DNA from: Geminocystis herdmanii PCC 6308
GTDB taxonomy: Bacteria > Cyanobacteriota > Cyanobacteriia > Cyanobacteriales > Cyanobacteriaceae
Assembly (NCBI RefSeq): GCF_000332235.1
Contig: NZ_CM001775.1
Location: 2,572,230-2,636,229 of the forward strand
Direction: 5' to 3'
DNA: 64,000 nucleotides
A program made the position numbers and the translations under genes. Below the pieces are notes generated by a model. It made no database searches and was not told where the DNA came from. It saw only the letters and a list, made by a program, of their open reading frames with translations. Shown here piece by piece: positions 1 through 12,283 of the stretch (position 1 is its first letter; each line of letters begins with the position of its first letter).

Positions 1-88
1 GAGTTTTCTGTGTCTGTTTAAATTGAATCAACAGAAACAAAAGTATTCAAAAGGCACTGAAAAGTAAAAGAGGAAGACCCTTAGTACA

Positions 89-125
89 CTTTCAATCGAC
101 TAAACATCAATGAGAGTATTTAAAC
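89..125 (-). CRISPR. degenerate 37-nt CRISPR-like repeat (possible delocalised crRNA)
   Basis: On the minus strand this 37-nt stretch begins with GTTT and ends with GATTGAAAG. Length, start and end fit the type V-K repeat pattern (37 nt, GTTTCAA...GGGTTGAAAG), but the middle is AT-rich and not like a canonical repeat. It lies about 100 nt beyond the 3' end of the tracrRNA, where a CRISPR array or the short self-homing crRNA of V-K transposons would lie. Its GATT just before GAAAG can pair with AATC that follows the last tracrRNA hairpin. No second copy is seen between 1 and 88, so this is not shown to be an array. The guide would read leftward from 88 (TGTACTAAGGGTCTTCCTC). Confidence 0.4.
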
Positions 126-219
126 TCTATAATCCCAAATCAAAATAGCAATAACAGTCTAAGCTAAGTTTGAACAAACTTCCTAGACAATTAAACTGTG
201 TGATAGGTTGTTCAAAATT

Positions 220-515
220 AATGTGAAGTAAGATTCCTTCGGTGAAGAAGGTGATTCAGTAACCATCACTGTAGTCATCCACATCCTTATTAGAGGACTA
301 AGCTCAGAAATAACCTTGTTCTTTGCTTTACTTCTTATTGCTGGGAGCGTACCTAACCGATAGAATATAAATAGCATTATCATTTTCTATCAATATTTCC
401 TTTCTCTGAGCAAGGTTCAGAGATCGCAGCCTCAGAAGCGGACAGTTACTAGGGTCAGAAAGAATAACTATTGCTTAATAGTCAAACTAACCCACTTTTT
501 TCACAGTGCAGAGGT
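220..515 (-). ncRNA. type V-K (Cas12k) tracrRNA of a CRISPR-associated transposon
   Basis: Read on the minus strand, the segment carries the ordered conserved blocks of Cas12k tracrRNAs as I remember them from the Scytonema and Anabaena elements: CCTCTGCACTGTG near 514, GGGTTAGTTTGAC (493-481), CTTTCTGACCCTAGTAACTG (462-443), GGTTAGGTACGCTCCCAGC near 358-340 followed by AATAAG, GTTACTGAATCACC (263-250), then a hairpin CCTTC/GAAGG (251-236) and AATCTTACTT (235-226) as the likely anti-repeat. The RNA would join Cas12k and the crRNA to guide TnsB/TnsC/TniQ. A 66-codon open frame on this strand (383-183) is just the RNA read as codons. No cas12k lies on its 5' side; a truncated hsdS starts there. 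The 5' end is uncertain because it runs into the hsdS frame. Identification is from recalled sequence, not alignment. Confidence 0.85.
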
Positions 516-1378
516 TTTTGTCTAAACTATTAACTGATTTTGTTCTTAAAGAAGTTGAAAAAATCCAAAGAGGGGCAAGTTATCCCGCAATTAGAGATAG
601 TGAGCTTAAGAATTTGGAAATTCCTCTTCCCCCACTAGAAGAACAGAAAAAAATAGCCCGTGTATTAACATTTATACAAGAGGCGATCGAAGAACAAGAA
701 AGGGCGATCGCATTGACAACGGAACTCAAACAAAACTTAATGCAAAAACTCTTTACGGAAGGATTAAACAATGAACCGCAAAAAATGACTGAAATAGGTC
801 TTATTCCCGAAAGTTGGGAGGTGATGAAATTTGAAGATTTTACCGTTTTACAAAGAGGAAAAGATTTAACCAAAGCAAATTTTAAAAACGGTAATATTCC
901 CGTTGCTGCTTCTAGTGGTATTATCGGCTATCATAATATAGCAAATGTTAAAGATTCAGGTGTAACAGTTGGTAGAAGTGGCTCAGTTGGTAGTGTAAAG
1001 TATTATGATTCAGATTTTTGGGCTCACAATACAACTTTATTTGTAAAAGATTTCAAGGGGAATGATAAGAAATTTACAGCTTACTATTTAGAATTTTTAA
1101 ATCTTTCTCGCTTTAAAACAGGAGCATCTGTTCCGACTTTAGATCGTAATTCCTTTAAAAAATTACCTATTAGTTTACCAAAAAAAATGGAGCAAATAGA
1201 AATTGCCAAAGTATTAGATTTAACTCAAGAGAAAATTGATTTTATATTAATGAAAAAAGAACAATTACAAGAGTTATTTAAAATATTATTACATCAATTA
1301 ATGACTGCAAAAATAAGAGTTGATGAATTAGATTTAAGCGTTCTAACCCCCAAGTTTGAAGAAATAAAAGGGGGATGA
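506..1378 (+). pseudogene. hsdS: type I restriction-modification specificity subunit HsdS, 5'-truncated
   Basis: The 290 codons match the second half of an HsdS: end of the first target-recognition domain with the conserved IPLPPLEEQKKIA segment (about residues 38-52), a helical spacer (about 53-90), a second recognition domain starting ESWEVMKFEDF (about 100-225) and a closing helix. Complete HsdS proteins have about 400-450 residues, so roughly the first third is gone. The only start is a GTG at 506 without a clear ribosome site, and it overlaps the 5' part of the divergent tracrRNA, so this looks like a deletion junction and not a real start. The last codons (LTPKFEEIKGG) come from a CCCCCAAGTTT...AAAGGGGG repeat like the one in hsdR. 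No hsdM is present. HsdS would give sequence specificity to HsdM/HsdR; this remnant is probably inactive. Confidence 0.8.
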
Positions 1379-1384
1379 GAAAAA

Positions 1385-3328
1385 ATGCTAACCTTTGATG
1401 AACTTTGGGAAATTCTAATTAACCAAGATGAAAGCACAGAAATAGAAGCAAAAAAAGCCTCTGATATGGGTAAAAGTATTTTGGATACTATTAGTGCGTT
1501 TTCCAATGAATCGGGTTTAGGTGGAGGTTATTTATTATTAGGAATAAAATCAGCAGAAGATAGCCAAAATAACATTTATGAGATTGAAGGTTTAGCCGAT
1601 CCTGATAAAATTCAAAGAGATTTAGCTTGTCAATGTCGAGAAGTTTTTAACATTCCTATTCGCCCTCAAATAGAAACGGTTACTAGAGAAGGAAAAATCG
1701 TTATCGTTGCCTTTATTCCCGAAGTTCAGCCCTCAGAAAAACCTGTTTATATTATTAAAAGAGGATTACCTAAAGGTGCATTTAGAAGGATCGGATCAAC
1801 GGATCAAAAATGCACAGAACGAGATTTAGAATTATTCTATCAAGAAAGAAGTAATCAAACTTTTGACCAAACTCCTGTTAAAGATGCAAGTTTGGATGAT
1901 TTTGAGTCACAGGCTATTGATGCTTATCGCCGTATTAGAAAACAAGTAAACCCCAATGCTAGTGAACTTAACTATAGCGATCGTGATTTATTAGATTCTT
2001 TATATGCCATAACCAAACATCCCAATCAAAAAGGAGAATATTGCCCTACTGTAGCAGGATTAATTTTATTTGGCAAAGAAATAGCCTTAAGAAAGCATTT
2101 TCCTTTACAGCGTGTTGATTATATTGTAGTTGAAGGAAAGGAATGGGTAGAGAATCCAGATAAACGTTATCAAAGTGTGATTGAAATTCGTCAGCCTTTA
2201 TTATTGGCTATTCCCCGACTAACAGCTTTAGTTTTAAACGATTTACCTAAAGCCTTTAATCTTCCTGAAGATCAGATAAATCGGCAAGATATTCCTTTAA
2301 TTCCTAGTGCGGTTATTAGAGAAGCTATTGTTAACGCTGTTATGCACAGGGATTATCGTATTCGTAGCCCAATTCAGATTATTCGATATTCAGATCGTTT
2401 AGAACTTCGTAACGCTGGTTATTCTTTAAAATCAATAGACGAATTAGATCAACCAAGTTCAAAAACTCGTAATGAAAAAATAGCTGAAACTCTCCATGAG
2501 TTAAATATAGCCGAAACTAAAGGATTTGGTATTAGAACTATGTTAGAAAATATGCGACAAGCAAATCTAACTATTCCTTTATTTGAATCAAGTAGAGAAA
2601 AAGACTCTTTTTGTCTTACTTTATTTACTCATCATTTTTTAGAGCAAGAAGATATTGACTGGTTAACTCAATTTAAATATCTTAACTTAAGTAAAGAAGA
2701 AACAAATGCTTTAGTTGTAATTAAAAAAACAGGTAAAATAAATAATTCAATTTATCGTTATGTTAATGATGTTGATATAAATAAAGCAAGTAAGCAATTA
2801 ATAAAATTAAGGGATTTAGGTTTAATTAATCAAAATGGTAAAAGCATAGCCACTTATTACACCATCAAGCCTGAATTTTTATCGGGACAGTTAGAAAAAC
2901 CTTATCAAGATAGTAGTACAGATAATCAAGACACTTTATCAGGACAGTCAGAAAAACCTTATCAGGAAGACAATACAGGCAATCAAGACACTTTATCAGG
3001 ACAGTTAGAAAAACCTTATCAAGACAGTAGTACAAGTCAACAGGGACAGTTAACTCTTGATTTATTTCCGCCTCTAAGCAAAAAAAAACTTGAAGAAAGA
3101 TTAAATAAAATTGGTAAACGAACCGAACCAGAGGAAATGAAAAGCCTAATATTGGAGTTGTGCAGAATAAAGCCTTATTCATCTAGTGAATTAGAAAAAT
3201 TGTTAAAACGAAAGCGAAAATATTTATTAGAACAATATCTTAAGCCTTTAATTGATGACAAGTTACTAGAATACACTAACCCCAATAGTCCTAACGATCC
3301 TCATCAAACTTATCGCACAAAACAATAA
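1385..3328 (+). CDS. AlbA_2/Schlafen-type DNA-binding and ATPase-like protein of the RM cargo
   Basis: A 647-residue protein, 6 nt behind hsdS, with ATG at 1385 after a weak purine tract. N-terminal AlbA_2 (Schlafen) domain, about residues 8-140 (TEIEAKKAS, GGGYLLLGI). The middle and end of the core (about 200-430) resemble the HATPase_c_4 family of 'ATP-dependent helicase RecG-like' or putative transcriptional regulators, with EAIVNAVMHRDY at about 313-324 and GFGIRTML at about 380. Three tandem 19-residue repeats follow (about 499-555), then a winged-helix-like lysine-rich tail. Such genes are commonly inserted in type I RM operons and may act in phage defence or regulation; the exact role is not established. 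It is intact while its neighbours hsdS and hsdR are broken. Confidence 0.75.
   Translation: MLTFDELWEILINQDESTEIEAKKASDMGKSILDTISAFSNESGLGGGYLLLGIKSAEDSQNNIYEIEGLADPDKIQRDLACQCREVFNIPIRPQIETVTREGKIVIVAFIPEVQPSEKPVYIIKRGLPKGAFRRIGSTDQKCTERDLELFYQERSNQTFDQTPVKDASLDDFESQAIDAYRRIRKQVNPNASELNYSDRDLLDSLYAITKHPNQKGEYCPTVAGLILFGKEIALRKHFPLQRVDYIVVEGKEWVENPDKRYQSVIEIRQPLLLAIPRLTALVLNDLPKAFNLPEDQINRQDIPLIPSAVIREAIVNAVMHRDYRIRSPIQIIRYSDRLELRNAGYSLKSIDELDQPSSKTRNEKIAETLHELNIAETKGFGIRTMLENMRQANLTIPLFESSREKDSFCLTLFTHHFLEQEDIDWLTQFKYLNLSKEETNALVVIKKTGKINNSIYRYVNDVDINKASKQLIKLRDLGLINQNGKSIATYYTIKPEFLSGQLEKPYQDSSTDNQDTLSGQSEKPYQEDNTGNQDTLSGQLEKPYQDSSTSQQGQLTLDLFPPLSKKKLEERLNKIGKRTEPEEMKSLILELCRIKPYSSSELEKLLKRKRKYLLEQYLKPLIDDKLLEYTNPNSPNDPHQTYRTKQ
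2879..3049 (+). repeat. three tandem 57-bp coding repeats in the AlbA gene
   Basis: Three direct units of 57 bp begin at 2879, 2936 and 2993. Each encodes LSGQ(L/S)EKPYQ followed by a variable D/S/T/N-rich half. The reading frame is kept, so copy number could change without breaking the protein. They form a linker between the ATPase-like core and the C-terminal basic domain. Confidence 0.85.
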
Positions 3329-3371
3329 ATTATCTTTTTCTTCTCTAAATTATCTTTTTCTTCTCTCAAAT

Positions 3372-6300
3372 ATGCCTAAACCAACTGAACATAAAACCGT
3401 CCAAGATCGCATCTTAACCTATGCCCAAGAAATAGGTTGGAGATTTGTACCTCGTAAGGAAGCCGAAGCTAAAAGAGGTTTTAACACCCCTTTACCCCCA
3501 AGTTTGGGAAAACAAAAGGGCGTTGAAATTCAACAAAAAGCCCAACAAGGATCATTATATTTTGATGATACTTTGTACCAAAAAGTCAAAGAATTTAATC
3601 CTCATTACAACGAAACCAAAGGGGATTTAATTAAACGCCTCAATAACTTATCCCTCGACATTTACGGTAATCGAGATTTTCTTAACTTATTACAAAATCA
3701 AGGGAAATACTTTTATCAGGCTGAAAATAGAGAACTAGATTTAATTTTAGTGGATTACGATCGCCCCGAAAATAATATTTATGAAGTTACAGAAGAATAT
3801 TATATCCATAACGGTAAATACGGCACAAGAGAAGATGTAGTATTTTTGATTAATGGTATTCCAGTATTGGTAATTGAATGTAAAAACGCTAATAAGAATG
3901 AGGCGATCGCATTAGGAATTGACCAAATTAGACGTTATCACCGAGAAACCCCAGAATTATTTATTCCCCAAATGTTGTTTACCGCCACAGAAGCGATCGG
4001 TTTCGCCTATGGAGTAACTTGGAATATCGTCAGACGCAATATTTTTAACTGGAAAGATGAAGAAATCGGACAACTAGAAAATAAAGTAAAGACTTTTTGC
4101 CATCCCTAAGTAATCTTAAATTTTCTGAAAAATTATATTATCTTTGCCGAAAAAGACGAAACCTTACAAAAATATATTCTGAAACAACATCAAACCTTAG
4201 CTATCGAACAAGTCATTAATCGTTGTCACGATGAAACTAAATTTAGGGGCTTAGTGTGGCACACTCAGGGAAGCGGAAAAACCTTCACCATGATTAAAAC
4301 CGCCGAAATGCTGTTTAAAGCACCAGATAGCGAAAAACCTACCATTATTTTAATGATCGATCGCAACGAATTAGAAGATCAAATGTTACGCAACCTGAAT
4401 ATACTCATCAAGGTTATAATCTGATGTTGCAAAATGTATAGTTGCCTCTTGCCTACTTGCCTTTTGCCTACCTTCACCAAACTCAAATTATGCCCTCGCC
4501 AAGTATAACTTAGGTGTTAACAATATTCGCCATGCCGATCGCATAAAAACCCTCGTGGAATTACTCGAAAACGACTATAGAGGTATTATTATCACCATGA
4601 TTCATAAATTCCGAGAAATGCCTCCTAACATCAACACAAGGAAAAATATCTATATCTTGATAGATGAGGCACACCGCACCACAGGAGGAGATTTAGGCAC
4701 ATTTTTAATGGCGGGTTTGCCTAATAGCACAATTATTGGCTTTACTGGTACACCCATTGACAAAACCAATCAAGGAAAAGGTACTTTCAAGGTTTTTGGG
4801 GTTGATGATGAGAAAGGTTATTTACATAAATACTCGATCGCTGAAAGTATCGAAGATGGTACAACTCTACCCCTTTACTATAACATCGCTCCTAATCAAT
4901 TATTAGTCCCTGCGGAAATAATGGAACAAGAATTTCTTGATTTAGTAGAAACAGAAGGGATAAACGATATAAGTGAACTCAATAAAATTTTAGATCGAGC
5001 AGTTAATTTAAAGAATTTTCTCAAAGCAGATCAAAGAATTGATCAAGTAGCAAAATATGTTGCTGAACATTATACAACCAATGTCGAACCTTTAGGATAT
5101 AAAGCCTTTTTAGTCGCAGTCGATCGCCCTGCTTGTGCTAAATATAAAGAAGCCTTAGATCGTTATTTAACCCCTGAATATTCGGCGGTAGTCTATACAG
5201 GTAATAATAATGACAGTGAAGAATTAAAGGCTTACCATCTCGATGATAAAACAGAGAAGCAAATCCGCAAAAACTTCGCTCGTTTTGGAGAATATCCGAA
5301 AATTTTAATAGTGACGGAAAAACTATTAACAGGTTATGACGCACCATTACTATATGCCATGTATCTGGATAAACCAATGCGAGATCATACCCTCTTACAA
5401 GCGATCGCCCGTGTTAATCGCCCTTATGAAAACGAAACAGAGGAGATGGTTAAACCTCATGGCTTTGTGTTAGATTTTGTAGGTATTTTTGATAAATTAG
5501 AAAAAGCATTAGCCTTTGATAGTGAAGAAGTTAACGCTATTGTTAAAGATTTACAATTACTTAAAAATTTATTCAAAATCAAAATTGAGCAATTAGTTCC
5601 CATTTACTTACCCCTAATTAAAAACAACTTTAACGATCAAGATGTCGATAATTTGATTGAATTTTTCAGAGAAAAAGAACAACGCAAAGGATTTATTAAA
5701 GGCTATAAAGAGTTAGAAATGCTTTATGAAGTTATATCTCCTGATGCCTTTTTACGCCCTTATATTGACCATTATACTAGCCTCTGTGGCATTTATCTAG
5801 TAGTTCGTAATGCTTACACTCGCAGAATTTATCTCGATCGAGAAGTCAAACGTAAAACTGATGAAATAGTACAAAAAAATATTGGGACAACGGCGATCGC
5901 ATCTATAAATGAATTTATAGAAATTAATGCAGAGACAATTGAAACCATTAAAAACAAAAAAAATGGTAACACAACCAAAGTAATTAACTTAGTGAAAAGC
6001 ATTGAAAAAATAGCAGAAGAAAACAAGGATGATCCCTTTTTAATCGCTATGGCACAAAGGGCAAAGGCGATCGAAGAAAGATTTGAAACGAGACAAGTTG
6101 ACACCCAAGAAACTTTAGATTTATTATTTCAAGAAATCAAAAATAATGAACAAAGGAAAAAGGAACAATCCGCCCAAGGCTTTGATAATTTAAGCTATTT
6201 TGTTTATAAAATCTTAAAGGATGCTGGAATAGAAAACCCCGAAGAAGTAAGTCATGAGATTAAACAGGCTTTTGTTGATTATCCTAACTGGAAGAAAAGT

Positions 6301-6420
6301 GAAAGAGAATTAAGAGAATTACGACAAGAAGTTACTTTTTCTATCTTTAGAGAAATAGATGATTTAGATCAGGTTACTAATATCGTTAATCAGTTATTCA
6401 ACCTTTTAAATCAAAATTAA
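3372..6420 (+). pseudogene. hsdR: type I restriction endonuclease subunit HsdR, broken by a stop codon and an insertion
   Basis: Three pieces of one HsdR. Piece 1 (3372-4109) has the N-terminal nuclease domain with EVT...(R)ED...VIECKN (PD-(D/E)xK type). An in-frame TAA at 4107-4109 follows; the same frame then continues with KNYIIFAEKDE, the Walker A segment WHTQGSGKT and DRNELEDQMLRNL to about 4398. Piece 3 restarts in another frame from about 4512 (YNLGVNNIRHADR; first start codon GTG 4555) with DEAH (IDEAHRTTGG), GFTGTPI, the rest of the helicase motor and the helical C-terminus to 6420. Between them about 110 bp of unrelated sequence contains a TTGCCT-rich intergenic repeat. An in-frame repeat also sits at about 3482-3530. 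HsdR would cleave DNA after ATP-driven translocation; these lesions should abolish it. Confidence 0.9.
4399..4505. repeat. intergenic-type repeat inserted in hsdR
   Basis: Between the two conserved parts of the HsdR motor there is about 107 bp with no HsdR similarity. It includes a TTGCCT(C/A)TTGCC-type run at about 4440-4471, a motif (reverse: GGCAAAAGGCAAG) common between cyanobacterial genes. It changes the frame, so it separates the Walker A and DEAH parts of the gene. The exact borders are uncertain. Confidence 0.6.
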
Positions 6421-6422
6421 TC

Positions 6423-6758
6423 ATGGTTTTAACCGATAAACAAAAAACGTGGAAAAACGCCCAACATTTCAAAACAGCAGTTTATAGATGGAGTGATCGC
6501 ATTAATGTTGAAGTAAAAGAGATTCAACTGCGTCAAATGAAAAATAAATGGGCTTCTATCTCTACAACAGGTAGATTAACTTTAAATAAAGAATTAATGG
6601 ATTTACCTCAAGAATTGGGAGAATTTGTAATTGTACATGAATTAATCCATCTACTCGTACCTAATCACAGTAAATTGTTTAAATGCTATATGTCAGCTTA
6701 TTTACCAGATTGGCAAGATCGAGAAAAACGCTTAAAAAAGTTATCTTCTCAAAAATAA
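6423..6758 (+). CDS. short YgjP/SprT-like zinc metalloprotease-type protein of the RM cargo
   Basis: A 111-residue protein starting 2 nt after the hsdR stop. It has HELIH at residues 72-76 (zinc-binding HExxH) with a further histidine in PNHS at about 82, the layout of the YgjP-like metallopeptidase domain (DUF45, M48-related). YgjP itself is about 230 residues; this is the short version that often ends type I RM operons. The role in these operons is not known. It is intact although hsdR is not. It is the last cargo gene before the convergent tniQ. Confidence 0.75.
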   Translation: MVLTDKQKTWKNAQHFKTAVYRWSDRINVEVKEIQLRQMKNKWASISTTGRLTLNKELMDLPQELGEFVIVHELIHLLVPNHSKLFKCYMSAYLPDWQDREKRLKKLSSQK

Positions 6759-6780
6759 ACAATGTAAATCAAATCAGGAT

Positions 6781-7287
6781 TTATTTTTGCTTTTTACTCA
6801 TCTTAATAAATGATAAATGACAGCGATCGCATCTACCATCTTTCCATAGAGAAGGAACAGAAAAAGAAGTTCCACAGTTAGGACATTTAGAAAGTAATTT
6901 CACCTTATGGCAATCGCATCCTCTTTTATTCTTATCTTGCCATTGTAAACGATGATAGGGAACTTCTTGATAACACATTCCACACAGCATAATCGGTTTA
7001 ATTTGCGTCACCATACCCTGATAAGGAAACATTTCCCGAAGGCGATCGACATCCAACATCACGACTGTTGCTAATTTTTCTAATTCTTGTGGCGTAGGAA
7101 AGGGAGAAAAATAAAACTTTTCCCATCGAGCCAAAATAGCCCCCAATCCTGCCACTTCACCCAATCCACTTGGTGCGGAGAAACGATTTCCCCTCGCACG
7201 ACGAAATCGACCTAAAAAATGACTAATACTTTCTCCTTCAAAGGGTTCAACCTTAGTCAACCAAAACTTATTTTCTTCTTCTTTCAT
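6781..7287 (-). CDS. tniQ: transposition protein TniQ, small V-K CAST type
   Basis: A 168-residue TniQ, close in size to the TniQ of V-K CASTs (about 167) and much shorter than TniQ/TnsD of Tn7. N-terminal part has the family signature (VEPFEGESISHFLGRFRRA, about 13-31). C-terminal zinc-ribbon pairs: C107xxC110, CDCH at about 129-132 and CPNC..CDRC at about 139-160. In V-K elements TniQ caps the end of the TnsC filament and links it to the Cas12k complex. Its ATG (7287) overlaps tnsC by 20 bp, so translation is probably coupled. It appears complete. Confidence 0.92.
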   Translation of the reverse strand: MKEEENKFWLTKVEPFEGESISHFLGRFRRARGNRFSAPSGLGEVAGLGAILARWEKFYFSPFPTPQELEKLATVVMLDVDRLREMFPYQGMVTQIKPIMLCGMCYQEVPYHRLQWQDKNKRGCDCHKVKLLSKCPNCGTSFSVPSLWKDGRCDRCHLSFIKMSKKQK

Positions 7288-8128
7288 GAGACCATTTTGT
7301 TGAAGCTATAACTTGTTTTAAAATCTCAGGAGTAATGTGTGTTTCTCCTCTGGTAAGAGAACGAATTGCGGCTTTCCGTAGAATCATGTCTAAACGTCCA
7401 ATTAATTTAAGGGTAGCAGTTTTGAGTAGTTTCAAATTTTCTGCTGTGGCTAAATTTGACGGCTCTGGTAATTCCAGCACATTTTTTTCCCAAACCTGTA
7501 CGATCATTTTAAACTCCTTATCATCGAGGCGATCGAGTTCATATTCTTCTAGGAAACGATTTGCAACCTGTTCATCCCTTTTGACAACAGTTTCCAGACG
7601 ACTGGTTGTACCTACTAATAAAACTGAGATATTTAACTCATCTTCATCGTAAACGTGTCTGACATCAGCAAAAGTTTCTTGTTTTAAATGATTAGCTTCA
7701 TCTACAATTAACATCTCGCAACCATGAATCGCTAAACCATCAAGAGTCCTTTCCCTCAAATCTGATATTGTTCCTTTGATGGGTTTATTCAATGCCTTGA
7801 GTATCTTGATAAAAAAATCTTTTGAGCCACATTTTTCAGGTACTTGAATATAAACCACTGGCTTGATCCGTTGCTTTTGCCCTTGTTTTGACTTATTGTA
7901 TCTGGCGGCAAAAGATTTACAAGTAACTGTTTTTCCACAACGAGATTCTCCTACTAATAAACCCGTCATCCGAGAAAGAATCAACTCATACATCCAACCA
8001 TGACACTGTTTGACTTGTTCAAATTCAATATATGGATCTTTCTTTAATCGATCAATTTCTGCTTGAATTTCAGGAGAGATATTAGGAAAATCACCAAACT
8101 GATGTGCGATCGTTTCTGCATTTGCCAT
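7268..8128 (-). CDS. tnsC: AAA+ transposition regulator TnsC, V-K CAST type
   Basis: An AAA+ ATPase with Walker A GESRCGKT (about residues 60-67 from the chosen start) and Walker B MLIVDEA (about 139-145), of the TniB/TnsC family. With 286 residues it matches the short TnsC of V-K elements. TnsC forms a filament on target DNA that carries the transposase to the site marked by Cas12k and TniQ. I chose ATG 8128 because GAGGA lies just upstream; a TTG at 8143 would add five residues. It follows tnsB after about 24 nt and overlaps tniQ, so tnsB-tnsC-tniQ is one operon. Confidence 0.93.
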   Translation of the reverse strand: MANAETIAHQFGDFPNISPEIQAEIDRLKKDPYIEFEQVKQCHGWMYELILSRMTGLLVGESRCGKTVTCKSFAARYNKSKQGQKQRIKPVVYIQVPEKCGSKDFFIKILKALNKPIKGTISDLRERTLDGLAIHGCEMLIVDEANHLKQETFADVRHVYDEDELNISVLLVGTTSRLETVVKRDEQVANRFLEEYELDRLDDKEFKMIVQVWEKNVLELPEPSNLATAENLKLLKTATLKLIGRLDMILRKAAIRSLTRGETHITPEILKQVIASTKWSHERRRK

Positions 8129-8152
8129 ATTTTTTATCCTCAATAAACTAAA

Positions 8153-9838
8153 TTAATCATCATCAAAAAGATCATCCATATATATGACTTCATAGGAAGG
8201 TATTTCTTCTTCCAAATCCTCATCATCCTCAATTGGCTCAGGTTCAGGAATAGTTAATTTTTCTGCTATAGATTTTGCAGGATTTACCTTTTGATGGGCT
8301 AATTGGCGGCGTTCGAGCCTATTGTTTTTAGTGAGATTTTCCAAGAGAACTTCCCTCTCTAACATCGCTTCAAGTACAGCATCATTATTAATATTTTCTT
8401 GTTCTCGATTAAGATGTTTATTAATTGCCTTTAGTTCTCGTAATGATAGCCTTTCCGCCTCTAATCCTTGAGCATGGGCATAATCGAGGAATTGTTCGGT
8501 TCCATCATTCAAGCGTTCATAAACTAAGATTGTAGTTATATCTTCAGGATCATAGCGAATAGATACAATTTCTCCTGCCATTCCCCTTAGTTGCTCACTT
8601 TTATAGGTTATATTCTCAAACTGCAACGTGCCAAACTTCTGAATAGTCCTTCGGGTTTGCTTCATCAGGCAAATGTCCAGTTCCCTTTCTTCATAGGGTT
8701 CAGGCTCAACTACTAAACCATTTTCCCACAGTTGTATCCGAGCTTGGTCTTTTCTCCTGCCATCTGGTTTTTGATTATATTCATCTACAATATATTTCAC
8801 CAAAATAAATTCTAAATCTTTTAAGTTTAGACAAGCATTTTGATCAACATTTTCGGGTCGTTCCTGAACATTAGCACCTGTATAGCCTGGTAATTCTCTT
8901 AAAACATTATCATTTAGGGTACGAAAAAATCTTTCCACAATACCACCATCTGAAGGTCTTCTTCTTAAAGAACAAGTAAACCCTAATTCCACCGCTATTT
9001 GTTCTGTTAGATGAATGGAGCGAAAATCTTTACCACCATCAGTATAAAAATAAGTGGGAGTACCATAGGCAGTCCATTCATTTCGCAAACCATATTCTGA
9101 ACTATAGAATTTAGGTAAAATAGCATGGCGTAATGCCAAAGCATCTATTTGCGAACTAGGACTTTCAAAGCCTAAATAAAATCCCATTAAACAACGAGAA
9201 TATGAATCAATAATGATTGTTAACCAAGGACGATCTAACACGCCAAACTCGTCAACTAGGCGAACATCGAGACGAGTATGATCGCACTGCCAAACATCAT
9301 TACTTCCCTCTACTTCCAATTCCCTACCATCACGAGTGATATGGGTTAACTTTGAACCTGAATATCCTGGACTTCTTGCTTTACGTTTCCTATTTTGTTC
9401 TTCCACATATTGATCTATAATTCGATAAACAGTTTGATGACTGGGGTAGTCTTTTTTTTCTAAATCTAATTGTTTAGCACGTCCTTTTACTTTTAGAAAA
9501 ACTTGATGACGAATAATGCGTTTACCATTTTGATTTCCTTTCTTGTAGGTATCTAAGATGAAATCAAACCACTCTTGATCAATACGGATTGTACCTTTAT
9601 CCGCCCTAGTTTTGATTATGCCCACAAAACCTTCTTCTCGGTATTTTTTCATCAATCTTTCGATGGAGCGAATTGATATCCCCAACTTTTCAGCCGCTTG
9701 TTGTTTTCTTTCACGATATAAGGTGCGATCGCAGGGTTCAATCAGACTTTCAACGACTTCCATCCTTAACTTCACCTCATCCGTAATCTGTTCGTCTGAG
9801 GGAAGCCGATATACTTTTGGTTGCTTCGATAATGCCAT
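8153..9838 (-). CDS. tnsB: DDE transposase TnsB, V-K CAST type
   Basis: A 561-residue Mu/Tn7-family transposase. N-terminal helix-turn-helix DNA-binding domains (about 1-150, LGISIRSIERLMKKY), RNase H-like DDE core with D186 (WQCDHT), D267 (FYTDGGKDF) and E302 (GGIVERFF), then a beta-barrel and an acidic C-terminal tail ending YMDDLFDDD that in the family contacts TnsC. All three catalytic acids are present. V-K elements lack TnsA and therefore move by a replicative route that makes cointegrates; no tnsA is seen here either. First gene after the transposon left end, with about 280 bp of end sequence upstream. Confidence 0.94.
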   Translation of the reverse strand: MALSKQPKVYRLPSDEQITDEVKLRMEVVESLIEPCDRTLYRERKQQAAEKLGISIRSIERLMKKYREEGFVGIIKTRADKGTIRIDQEWFDFILDTYKKGNQNGKRIIRHQVFLKVKGRAKQLDLEKKDYPSHQTVYRIIDQYVEEQNRKRKARSPGYSGSKLTHITRDGRELEVEGSNDVWQCDHTRLDVRLVDEFGVLDRPWLTIIIDSYSRCLMGFYLGFESPSSQIDALALRHAILPKFYSSEYGLRNEWTAYGTPTYFYTDGGKDFRSIHLTEQIAVELGFTCSLRRRPSDGGIVERFFRTLNDNVLRELPGYTGANVQERPENVDQNACLNLKDLEFILVKYIVDEYNQKPDGRRKDQARIQLWENGLVVEPEPYEERELDICLMKQTRRTIQKFGTLQFENITYKSEQLRGMAGEIVSIRYDPEDITTILVYERLNDGTEQFLDYAHAQGLEAERLSLRELKAINKHLNREQENINNDAVLEAMLEREVLLENLTKNNRLERRQLAHQKVNPAKSIAEKLTIPEPEPIEDDEDLEEEIPSYEVIYMDDLFDDD

Positions 9839-10124
9839 TACCCAAAATAATTTACTATTAAACTCTTTTTACAGAATAGCATTTACTTTAAGAAACGACA
9901 ACTAATATATTAAATCATTTTCCAAAGGACAATTAAGCCTATCTAAAAATAAGCGACAGATAAAACTTGAAAAACAATAATAAACGACATTTAACTGTTG
10001 AAATAAGTGATCTCACTCATTAAGAAGATAAAAATGACTCGAACCCATGTATAATGGAATTTATAGAGATTTTTGACCCCGACAATAATATGAGAAATAG
10101 CGACACTTAATTATTGAATGTACA
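9839..10124. mobile_element. left end of the V-K CAST with TnsB-site-like repeats
   Basis: Non-coding segment between tnsB and the outer border. On the minus strand the end reads TGTACATTCAATAATTAAGT then GTCGC (10124 to 10100), the TGTACA...TGTCG form of V-K transposon ends. Similar (C/G)GACA motifs in the same orientation start at about 10079, 9984, 9953, 9927 and 9896, giving about six possible TnsB sites and probably overlapping the tnsB promoter. The bases just outside are TATTA (10125-10129), a candidate 5-bp target duplication. The right end and the second copy are not in the window; the element reaches from here past position 1. Confidence 0.8.
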
Positions 10125-10305
10125 TATTAGAAGTCTTGTTCTATGCCTAGTTTTAAAGGTTAAAAGTAGAGTATGGACTCTGAATTATTCTGAATTTTTA
10201 CAAAAATTTACAAAATTGCAAAGTATTGCAACAAAATTGCGATTTTTTTTCCTTAATCTTTTACAATAAATTTTTCAAATACGTTTATTTAAGGATAAAA
10301 AATTA
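10125..10305 (+). other. psaK upstream region, target of the CAST insertion
   Basis: This 181-bp AT-rich stretch holds the presumed psaK promoter and leader. The transposon sits directly upstream, so regulatory sequence farther out has been displaced. No tRNA or other usual CAST attachment gene is seen. The candidate guide at 70-88 does not match it by eye. Confidence 0.4.
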
Positions 10306-10569
10306 ATGCTATATCTCAATACCTTCTTAGCTAGTATTCCTGCTACCGTTGAATGGAATACTAATGTTGCACTAACCATGATTATCTGTAACATTATAGC
10401 GATCGCATTTGCTAAGTTTACCGTAAAATATCCCAGTGCTGATCCTCAATTACCTAGCCCCACTTTTTTTGGTGGTTTTGGCTTACCTGCGGTATTAGCC
10501 GCCACTAGTTTTGGACATATTTTAGGGGTGGGAGTTATCCTTGGATTAACTAATTTTGGTGTTTTATAG
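10306..10569 (+). CDS. psaK: photosystem I reaction centre subunit PsaK
   Basis: An 87-residue thylakoid membrane protein of the PsaK family (subunit X): two hydrophobic helices, about residues 22-38 and 60-84, joined by the polar loop VKYPSADPQLPSPTFFGGFG. PsaK sits at the edge of photosystem I and helps bind antenna chlorophyll and, in cyanobacteria, take part in energy transfer from phycobilisomes. The ATG at 10306 follows AAGGATAAAAAATTA, an acceptable ribosome site. The convergent neighbour is ycf37, also a photosystem I factor. The CAST lies 182 bp upstream. Confidence 0.93.
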   Translation: MLYLNTFLASIPATVEWNTNVALTMIICNIIAIAFAKFTVKYPSADPQLPSPTFFGGFGLPAVLAATSFGHILGVGVILGLTNFGVL

Positions 10570-10571
10570 GA

Positions 10572-10640
10572 ATTAGATAATGGGTAATAGGTAGTAGGTA
10601 ATAGGTAATAGGAATGGGGAATCAGGAATTATAAGCCACT
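10572..10640. repeat. short tandem AGGTAAT-type intergenic repeat
   Basis: Run of degenerate GGTAATAGGTAGTAGGTAATA heptads followed by GGAATGGGGAATCAGG. It is the kind of short tandem repeat seen between many cyanobacterial genes; related runs occur at 14280-14315 (TTTTAGG units) and 57421-57450 (CAGGTAA units). Confidence 0.7.
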
Positions 10641-10669
10641 GTTAATTGTTAATTGTTAATTTCTAATGG

Positions 10670-11194
10670 TTAATTTTTGACAAGACGTTTTTCTAAAGAT
10701 TCAACTCGTTTGAGTGCGATCGTATTTTTAGGATCATATTCTAAAGTTTTTTGATAACATTCCAAGGCAGGAGAAACTAAGATTTTTTTCTCGTAAACAT
10801 TGCCTAAATTATTAAGGGCGATGGTATATTCAGGGTATAATTTAATTGCTTCTTTATAGTTTTTGATAGCAAGATCATATTGTTCTTGAGAAAAGTAAGA
10901 AAAACCTAAAGCATTATAAATTAAAGCCTTATTTTCGGGTTCAATATTTTGTGCTTTTAAGGCTCTTTGTAGTAATTGTACCGCTTGAACAAAGAGTTTT
11001 TTATCTAAATAAATACTAGCTAATTCATAATATTCTTGGGGAGTGCCTCTTTCATTTTTTAACTTATTTTGGAGTTTAGAAAAACGGGATTCAATTTTTC
11101 TTGTTTTAATAATTTGCCTTAATAAAACAATGGCAACAATCCCTAATAAACCTAGTAAAATAGAGATATAAAGAACGGGTAAATTTTCACGCAT
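10670..11194 (-). CDS. ycf37: Ycf37-like TPR protein for photosystem I assembly
   Basis: A 174-residue protein with one N-terminal membrane helix (about 6-25) followed by about three TPR repeats (about 50-165, for example ALIYNALGFSYFSQEQYDLA and AYALNNLG-like IALNNLGNVYEKK). Size, N-terminal helix and repeat layout match Ycf37 of cyanobacteria (about 173 residues), which helps assemble and stabilise photosystem I. Its location facing psaK supports this. A generic TPR protein cannot be fully excluded. Confidence 0.75.
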   Translation of the reverse strand: MRENLPVLYISILLGLLGIVAIVLLRQIIKTRKIESRFSKLQNKLKNERGTPQEYYELASIYLDKKLFVQAVQLLQRALKAQNIEPENKALIYNALGFSYFSQEQYDLAIKNYKEAIKLYPEYTIALNNLGNVYEKKILVSPALECYQKTLEYDPKNTIALKRVESLEKRLVKN

Positions 11195-11356
11195 AAATGT
11201 AAAACTTTTTCATAATTATTTTGTTATTTTCTTATTTTACCATAAGCTCGATCGTTCAGTTTTAACTCAATCTATTCTTTGTATCTTCGTTTTTTTTCTC
11301 TTATTTTTAGCTCAATTATCTCTTCTATTATACATTTTCATTAAGTATAAATATTC

Positions 11357-11413
11357 GTTTGTAGTAAGGGTTTTAACCCTGATTAATTAATGGCTAAAGC
11401 CATCACTACAAAC
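11357..11413. repeat. 57-bp palindromic intergenic repeat, copy 1
   Basis: Begins GTTTGTAGT and ends ACTACAAAC (9-bp terminal inverted repeat), with two inner palindromes AGGGTTTTAACCCT and TGGCTAAAGCCA. A copy differing at one base is at 42629-42685 and a half copy at about 37778-37803. It has the look of a small non-autonomous element (MITE or REP type). It ends exactly at the folD stop codon. Confidence 0.85.
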
Positions 11414-12283
11414 TTATTTTTTATTCTCCAAGAGATAACTTTCATAGGTGTTTTGTAATAACATGGCGACAGTCATCGGACCTACTCCCCCCGGCACAGG
11501 AGTAATATAACTAGCGATTTCTTTAACTTCATTATAGGCAACATCTCCCACTAAACGCCCTTTGCCGTCAGAGGTTTCTATACGGTTAATGCCAACATCA
11601 ATAACGACTGCATGGGGTTTCACCATGTCAGCAGTAATCATTTCGGGTTTCCCTACGGCAGCGATTAATATATCCGCTTCTTGACAAACTTGAGCTAAAT
11701 TAGCGGTTTTGGAATGGGCGATGGTGACGGTAGCATTTTCTTCGAGTAGCATTAAGGCTAAAGGTTTACCCACTAAAATACTTCTGCCGACAACTACGGC
11801 TTTTTTTCCTGCTATGGGGATATTATATTCTCTCAAAATTTCCATCACTCCTGCTGGAGTACAACTTCTTAAACCTTTTTCTCCTCTAACTAATTTACCT
11901 AAATTCACGGGATGAAGTCCATCAGCATCTTTTTCTGGTGCGATCGTATGTAATAATGCAACAGAGTTAAAATGATCAGGTAAGGGTAATTGTACTAAAA
12001 TACCATCAACATTAGGATCATGGTTTAATTCTTCGATGACGGCGGTTAACTCCTCTTGACTGGTGTTAGCAGGAAAATGTCTGCCAAAGGAAGCCATACC
12101 GATTTTTGTACAAGATTTTTCTTTATTGCTGACATAAACTGCACTAGCAGGATTATCTCCTACCATTAACACCGCTAATCCGGGAGGACGTTTTTTTTTT
12201 GTCATTGCCTCTTTGATGGCAACTTGTAAACGAGATTGTACTTTTTTGGCTAAACTTTTACCGTCTAAAATTTGAGCGACCAT
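11414..12283 (-). CDS. folD: FolD, methylenetetrahydrofolate dehydrogenase/cyclohydrolase
   Basis: A 289-residue protein, the normal FolD length. Catalytic segment [14 protein letters not shown] contains the family lysine (K of the NKEK motif), followed by QLPLPDH and the dinucleotide-binding [12 protein letters not shown]; it ends with [16 protein letters not shown]. It converts methylene-tetrahydrofolate to formyl-tetrahydrofolate in two steps in the cytosol. I prefer ATG 12283 (MVAQILDG), since an upstream ATG at 12325 would add 14 residues without similarity. Monocistronic; a repeat forms its 3' border. Confidence 0.95.

Follow-up and report, generated by a model that had tools for sequence, protein, structure and literature searches.

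What becomes of a type V-K CRISPR-associated transposon (CAST) that keeps its transposase genes and trans-activating CRISPR RNA (tracrRNA) but shows no cas12k? This question is raised by a locus in the cyanobacterium Geminocystis herdmanii PCC 6308, at the start of a 64,000-nt stretch of DNA (the window; NZ_CM001775.1, positions 2,572,230 to 2,636,229). We call the element E1 and give coordinates as window positions, window base 1 being contig base 2,572,230; sequence further left is taken from a stretch starting 10 kb left of the window (L004, in which position equals window position + 9999). A first-pass annotation had proposed that the element is crippled, borrows Cas12k in trans or has another way of targeting. 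With a probability of roughly 85%, we read E1 as what a deletion left of a V-K CAST homing to tRNA-Pro, capable of unguided transposition at most.

Transposase, ends and homing guide without cas12k

E1 spans 10,573 bp, from window −448 to 10124, and contains the following parts of a V-K element, together with the gene that abuts its tracrRNA:

−448 to −425 (outside the window): element end opposite tnsB, its first 21 nt being those of the tnsB-side end
89..125, minus strand: single 37-nt V-K-type CRISPR repeat, placed by sequence and coordinates; presumably a vestigial array
223..520, minus strand: V-K tracrRNA (nhmmer E 5.4e-38), without its 5′ end (model positions 46-246 matched) and usual promoter region
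506..1378, plus strand: hsdS without its N-terminal part (Methylase_S and PRK09737 positions)
6781..7287, minus strand: tniQ, 168 amino acids (aa); TniQ_0_V-K E 6.9e-70, TniQ 7n6i E 1.2e-58
7268..8143, minus strand: tnsC, AAA+ regulator of 291 aa; TnsC_0_V-K E 1.1e-68, ShTnsC 7m99 E 4e-64
8153..9838, minus strand: tnsB, DDE transposase of 561 aa; PADLOC TnsB_0_V-K E 1.4e-193
10101..10124, minus strand: tnsB-side end TGTACATTCAATAATTAAGTGTCG, outermost base 10124

All three transposase genes are open, and each product aligns over most of its length to ShCAST chains, TnsB with residues 17-550 to chain 8rdu_R. We take the catalytic D/D/E positions of TnsB to fall in the aligned WQCDHT, FYTDGG and GGIVER segments, and GESRCGKT of TnsC to be Walker A. 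E1 thus encodes the V-K TnsB, TnsC and TniQ of such a CAST, and the profile matches, open frames and end at 10124 agree with the earlier placing of these genes and an element end within 6781-10124. Judged by its TnsB, E1 is present in the genome as a single copy.

The tracrRNA was searched for with an nhmmer profile built from 23 other V-K tracrRNAs and a covariance model built from 21 others. When window 1-12000 was shuffled 20 times by mononucleotide, the profile matched none of the shuffles (E<=1). The covariance model matched 250-507 on the minus strand (108 bits, E 3.1e-27) and nothing in L003 outside the E1 tracrRNA or in two further tnsB-bearing stretches, L069 and L071; no Rfam family reached gathering score over the E1 tracrRNA. 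Both models and the alignment therefore bear out a tracrRNA at about 220-515 on the strand of tnsB, tnsC and tniQ, as first proposed, including the covariance-model test put forward for it. This tracrRNA is truncated: its match starts at model position 46, compared with positions 7-16 for 11 other matches of the same search. As the tracrRNA of V-K CASTs starts 35 nt after the cas12k stop, according to the available text of PMC9938897, the promoter region must be gone as well. Where hsdS and tracrRNA join, a simple minus-strand scan showed no promoter-like site; one lies within the tracrRNA at 393-364 (minus strand), and such sites are as frequent in shuffles.

Downstream, only one full CRISPR repeat was noticed by eye in E1, of the 37-nt length given for V-K repeats in PMC9938897 (available text). 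It is accompanied at −126 to −93 (minus strand) by a truncated repeat (R*) and the 17-nt homing spacer GCGCACTTCGTTCGGGA, which matches tRNA-Pro(CGG) at 17 of 17 positions, with the protospacer-adjacent motif (PAM) GTA, 61 nt from the E1 end. This is the anchor-spacer layout of V-K CASTs, for which the same text gives an R* of about 12 nt, a 17-nt spacer, a GTN PAM and a distance of 46-82 nt; the E1 spacer is accordingly a homing spacer. R* pairs with the tracrRNA anti-repeat at −17.1 kcal/mol (equalled by 4 of 1000 shuffles), and the full repeat more weakly, at −10.2 kcal/mol (19 of 1000).

The targeted tRNA-Pro(CGG) (L004 9468-9541) lies nine bases beyond the E1 end at −448, and homology to the same-genus genome G003 breaks off at L004 9544, six bases before that end. 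An SNF2 helicase gene followed by tRNA-Pro(CGG) is found in three of four same-genus relatives (G003, G001 and G004), the fourth, G002, having the two matches on separate contigs. Surveys of tnsB, cas12k and tracrRNA gave no CAST match at this site in G003, G001 or G004, so the helicase is a host gene and not cargo. Between helicase and tRNA-Pro lies an AT-rich short-unit repeat (L004 9320-9410) that recurs widely and takes nearly all 60 own-genome matches of the flank search.

Within these boundaries cas12k is absent. The Cas12k profile NF038191, run over the whole genome at E<=10, found nothing in E1, which consequently does not encode the effector that a V-K CAST carries; as the first-pass annotation had it, hsdS meets the tracrRNA directly where cas12k usually sits. 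That annotation had also allowed for a cas12k left of position 1, which is now ruled out: the element ends at −448 and the stretch between holds none. It is very improbable that misassembly dropped the gene, given that the host assembly is a single contig of 4.26 Mb, 99.98% complete, and that the flank on the tRNA side runs collinear with G003, G001 and G004.

Besides the truncated hsdS, the cargo between the transposase genes and the tracrRNA comprises an AlbA/RecG-like protein, a broken hsdR and a YgjP-like protein:

1385..3328, plus strand: protein with AlbA_2 and RecG-C-like ATPase domains (Pfam PF04326, PF13749)
3372..6420, plus strand: hsdR with frame breaks, open pieces 3372-4109 and 4555-6420
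6423..6758, plus strand: YgjP-like metallopeptidase (Pfam PF01863)

Family scans of the eight E1 open reading frames (ORFs) revealed no further targeting protein, and the homing guide is a typical V-K one; the proposal of another way of targeting finds no positive support in either. E1 probably does not represent a new targeting system but a relic that has been disabled.

The hsdS-tracrRNA junction and competing readings

In a 461-position HsdS model, residues 4-59 of the hsdS product correspond to positions 120-176, confirming that the gene is 5′-truncated. The junction with the tracrRNA lies at about 506-520, a position not refined to the base because HsdS relatives are too distant. A Pfam scan of five cargo ORF pieces found no methylase. 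One deletion explains the missing hsdS N-terminus, tracrRNA 5′ end, promoter region and cas12k together; internal deletion is the most likely cause of the loss of cas12k, and we infer that it was a single event. A former V-K CAST homing to tRNA-Pro(CGG) would have been cut so that the middle of hsdS was fused to the 5′ part of the tracrRNA. Along with cas12k and the tracrRNA promoter, the deletion would have removed what else there was of hsdS and, probably, hsdM and the cas12k regulator; it would have spared tnsB, tnsC and tniQ, the two element ends, the main part of the tracrRNA and the homing guide. RNA-guided transposition is then most likely dead in this host, and any residual mobility would be untargeted, of the sort that V-K transposases are reported to show without Cas12k. 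The deletion footprint, the lost tracrRNA 5′ end and the frame breaks in hsdR all favour the initial proposal that the element is crippled.

If Cas12k were instead borrowed in trans, E1 would be a satellite CAST that keeps its homing guide and transposase and draws on another V-K CAST, now or in another host. The preserved guide, anti-repeat pairing and ends are in keeping with this, as are two further V-K loci on the host chromosome, E2 (L005) and E3 (L035, L006), and full-length, stop-free cas12k genes in the same-genus genomes G001 and G003. Against it, each of the two other cas12k genes detected in the genome is disrupted. In E2, tnsB is accompanied by short ORFs for tnsC (219 aa) and tniQ (133 aa), and a short insertion (L005 16800-16832) breaks cas12k into pieces of 179 and 453 aa, with the stop and a GTG start overlapping there (GTGA); the two pieces might conceivably still function together. 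E3 has tniQ and a cas12k that is 96% identical to the intact G001 gene and carries one in-frame TGA (L006 about 1984), which in the alignment falls within a few codons of the E2 break. Apart from these two, NF038191 gave only a 12-bit match (E 0.07) that we judged to be chance. With both other copies disrupted, the genome yielded no intact cas12k, and borrowing is unsupported in this host, though conceivable in others. Further counter-evidence comes from E1 itself: its tracrRNA lacks the 5′ part and promoter region, the element is single-copy, and the tracrRNA holds an extra hairpin sequence that in the alignment resembles the tracrRNAs of G076, L044, L045, L048 and L056 and is absent from the short tracrRNAs of the co-resident E2 and E3. 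Taken together, we regard borrowing as improbable. Slightly less probable still is its extended form, a homing satellite with a private transposase and tRNA-Pro guide, re-mobilised whenever another CAST supplies a compatible Cas12k, such that guide and effector would be separately inheritable in V-K elements.

Some details of the co-resident loci stand apart from this comparison. We considered whether the insertion in E2 cas12k is a frequent dispersed repeat and rejected this, as a 20-nt pattern from it occurs once in the genome when up to 3 mismatches are allowed. For E3 no tnsB turned up; at its expected place (L038 15503-16674) there are ORFs that by eye resemble those of insertion sequences. 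Within E1, hsdR at about 4430-4530 reads NLMLQNV.LPLAYLPFAYLHQTQ, resembling a small ORF near E3, the third V-K locus (L038 15799-15984); this stretch is perhaps a dispersed repeat.

A functional, Cas12k-independent transposon that took up an untargeted, Tn5469-like life after losing cas12k is unlikely, if less so than a satellite. With tnsB, tnsC and tniQ open and both ends present, the three proteins could still carry out insertion without Cas12k, as the available text of PMC11702153 reports for V-K systems; Tn5469 likewise appears untargeted in that of PMC11406308. Tn5469 resembles E1 in being Tn7-like, in having a single TniQ and in that no CRISPR effector is named for it there, but it is described without cargo genes and the text at hand mentions no tracrRNA. 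An active untargeted life also sits poorly with an element that is single-copy, still at the tRNA target of its own guide, and decaying in its cargo.

Several observations weigh against E1 being a dead deletion derivative. The guide shows no visible decay, its spacer matching throughout and its tracrRNA:R* duplex being good, and the open tnsB, tnsC and tniQ could reflect retained use. No close relative of E1 without the deletion was found, and the nearest element seen whole, described below, is itself imperfect, with a frame break in tnsC. A 5-bp target duplication is usual in V-K CASTs; none was found here, the two E1 flanks being different, and the second V-K locus of the genome likewise lacks one. 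At the tnsB-side end E1 adjoins psaK. Aragorn detected no tRNA in ten psaK-matching loci (the window's own included, with about 1.5 kb of flank each), and an empty site joining tRNA-Pro to psaK was not found: at none of the relatives' loci does psaK adjoin a tRNA. In the host genome, the genes that lie upstream of psaK in G003 sit 1.5 Mb away, and the region has been rearranged at some time. The missing duplication and the position of psaK in relatives imply that more than one rearrangement occurred.

Relatives and the frequency of cas12k loss

The closest relative seen whole is the V-K element of G076 (L036, L037 and L087), whose TnsB is 64-67% identical to that of E1, with TnsC at about 61% and TniQ at 57%. 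It runs tnsB-tnsC-tniQ, cargo, cas12k (637 aa), tracrRNA, two repeats, homing spacer and tRNA-Pro(CGG). End sequences are similar, and layout and target are the same; the homing spacer is identical to that of E1 and the distance from PAM to end is 62 nt, as against 61 nt. The G076 element differs in its full-length cas12k, two-repeat array and other cargo, and may itself be past its prime. A plasmid search with TnsB gave no match at >=60% identity. The corresponding search of genome contigs gave five loci, the best (69%, L030) on a contig that stops 2.4 kb past tniQ, before the state of cas12k can be read.

Compared with the V-K CASTs ShCAST and AnCAST, as far as the available text of PMC9938897 describes them, E1 shares the order and sequence of tnsB-tnsC-tniQ, the ends, the tracrRNA, the 37-nt repeat, the R* with 17-nt anchor spacer, the tRNA target and the GTN PAM at 46-82 nt, but it lacks cas12k and the tracrRNA 5′ end, and its array appears reduced to a single repeat. 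V-K loci with degenerated cas12k, mentioned in the same text and exemplified by G048:C75, also keep V-K parts; in them cas12k is damaged, whereas in E1 it is wholly absent. With transposase and guide parts present and cas12k missing, E1 belongs with Cas12k-defective V-K derivatives and not with complete V-K CASTs.

To place this state in context, we surveyed tnsB, cas12k and tracrRNA in 100 genomes, the host's own included, with strict tracrRNA filters under which weak matches can be lost, so that the counts are lower bounds. Fifty tracrRNA rows were merged by hand into 43 loci (seven pairs lay within about 2 kb), and four loci at contig edges (G062:C85, G074:C5, G037:C260 and G037:C295) were left out. 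Among the 39 assessable loci, 25 have a full-length, stop-free cas12k, nine a broken one (E2, E3, G048:C75, G001:2553598, G004:C18, G028:C10, G008:1546738, G092:C75:108134 and G058) and five none within 2 kb (E1, G001:3703247, G045:C53, G006:2216288 and G008:3610594), E1 being the sole one of these five with an intact tnsB match. Intact cas12k is therefore absent at 14/39 loci with the three of the host genome included, and at 11/36 without them: loss or decay of cas12k is common among V-K loci. G048:C75 resembles E1 in its open tnsB (570 aa), tnsC (278 aa) and tniQ (169 aa) and good tracrRNA, its cas12k being degraded.

Published counts point the same way. The available text of PMC9938897 sets aside 12 of 118 Cas12k as degenerated and, for 210 regulator genes, reports cas12k or degenerated cas12k near 169 and no CAST part near 18; the regulator genes in neither of these groups suggest that CAST remnants without cas12k are already in those data. 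No description of a V-K element with open tnsB, tnsC and tniQ, a tracrRNA and a homing guide but without cas12k was found in the open-licence PubMed Central literature searched, including the available text of PMC11406308, PMC9938897, PMC8649781, PMC10293859 and PMC11702153. E1 shows V-K CAST decay with exact boundaries and a matched cas12k-bearing relative: the effector is lost, and the transposase remains together with the ends and the homing guide. A survey in which a tracrRNA with tnsB, tnsC and tniQ passes for a working CAST would be misled by it. Were the satellite explanation true after all, E1 would be a test case for the use of Cas12k in trans.

Two stretches of relatives that carry tnsB with no cas12k nearby, examined as possible further cases of the E1 state, were rejected, neither having a tracrRNA match in the sequence fetched: L069 (G026:945000-964900, tnsB at 961479), in which the ORFs beside tnsB look by eye like other transposases, and L071 (G001:3656000-3675900), whose tnsB has one TGA. 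Separately, G026:C1:708856 has a full-length cas12k and two tracrRNAs 250 kb from the only tnsB match of that genome (961479), and G045:C53:23469-23667 is a tracrRNA match (69 bits) in a genome with no Cas12k or TnsB match at E<=0.001.

tracrRNA copies fused to the homing CRISPR RNA

We inspected 23 tracrRNA copies, drawn from the 50 survey rows, for direct continuation into the homing CRISPR RNA (crRNA). Eight of them run straight into a truncated homing repeat that starts 37-49 nt past the AATCACC motif:

L005 18844-19045, plus strand: fused copy
L070 7854-8058, minus strand: fused copy
L054 397-554, minus strand: fused copy
L090 3371-3528, minus strand: fused copy
L075 from 739: fused copy, start given
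L073 from 8722: fused copy, start given
L049 from 4153: fused copy, start given
L089 from 17020: fused copy, start given

The minimum-energy fold of the short joining segment is an anti-repeat/repeat hairpin in six of the eight; the copies of E2 and G003 have another best fold. Seven carry a spacer that matches a flanking site at 16 or 17 of 17 positions with a GTN PAM; the target-to-end distance is 46-62 nt for six of them and 114 nt for the one in G004. For one fused copy in G006 no spacer match was seen within 700 nt. Judged from their sequences, the fused tracrRNA-crRNA copies look like natural single-guide RNAs for homing, and no description of such a fusion was found in the open-licence PubMed Central literature searched. 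These fusions may matter more than E1: they would give transposon homing a natural single-guide RNA. At one G006 locus (1001019), cas12k is intact and the fused copy is the sole tracrRNA found in its vicinity.

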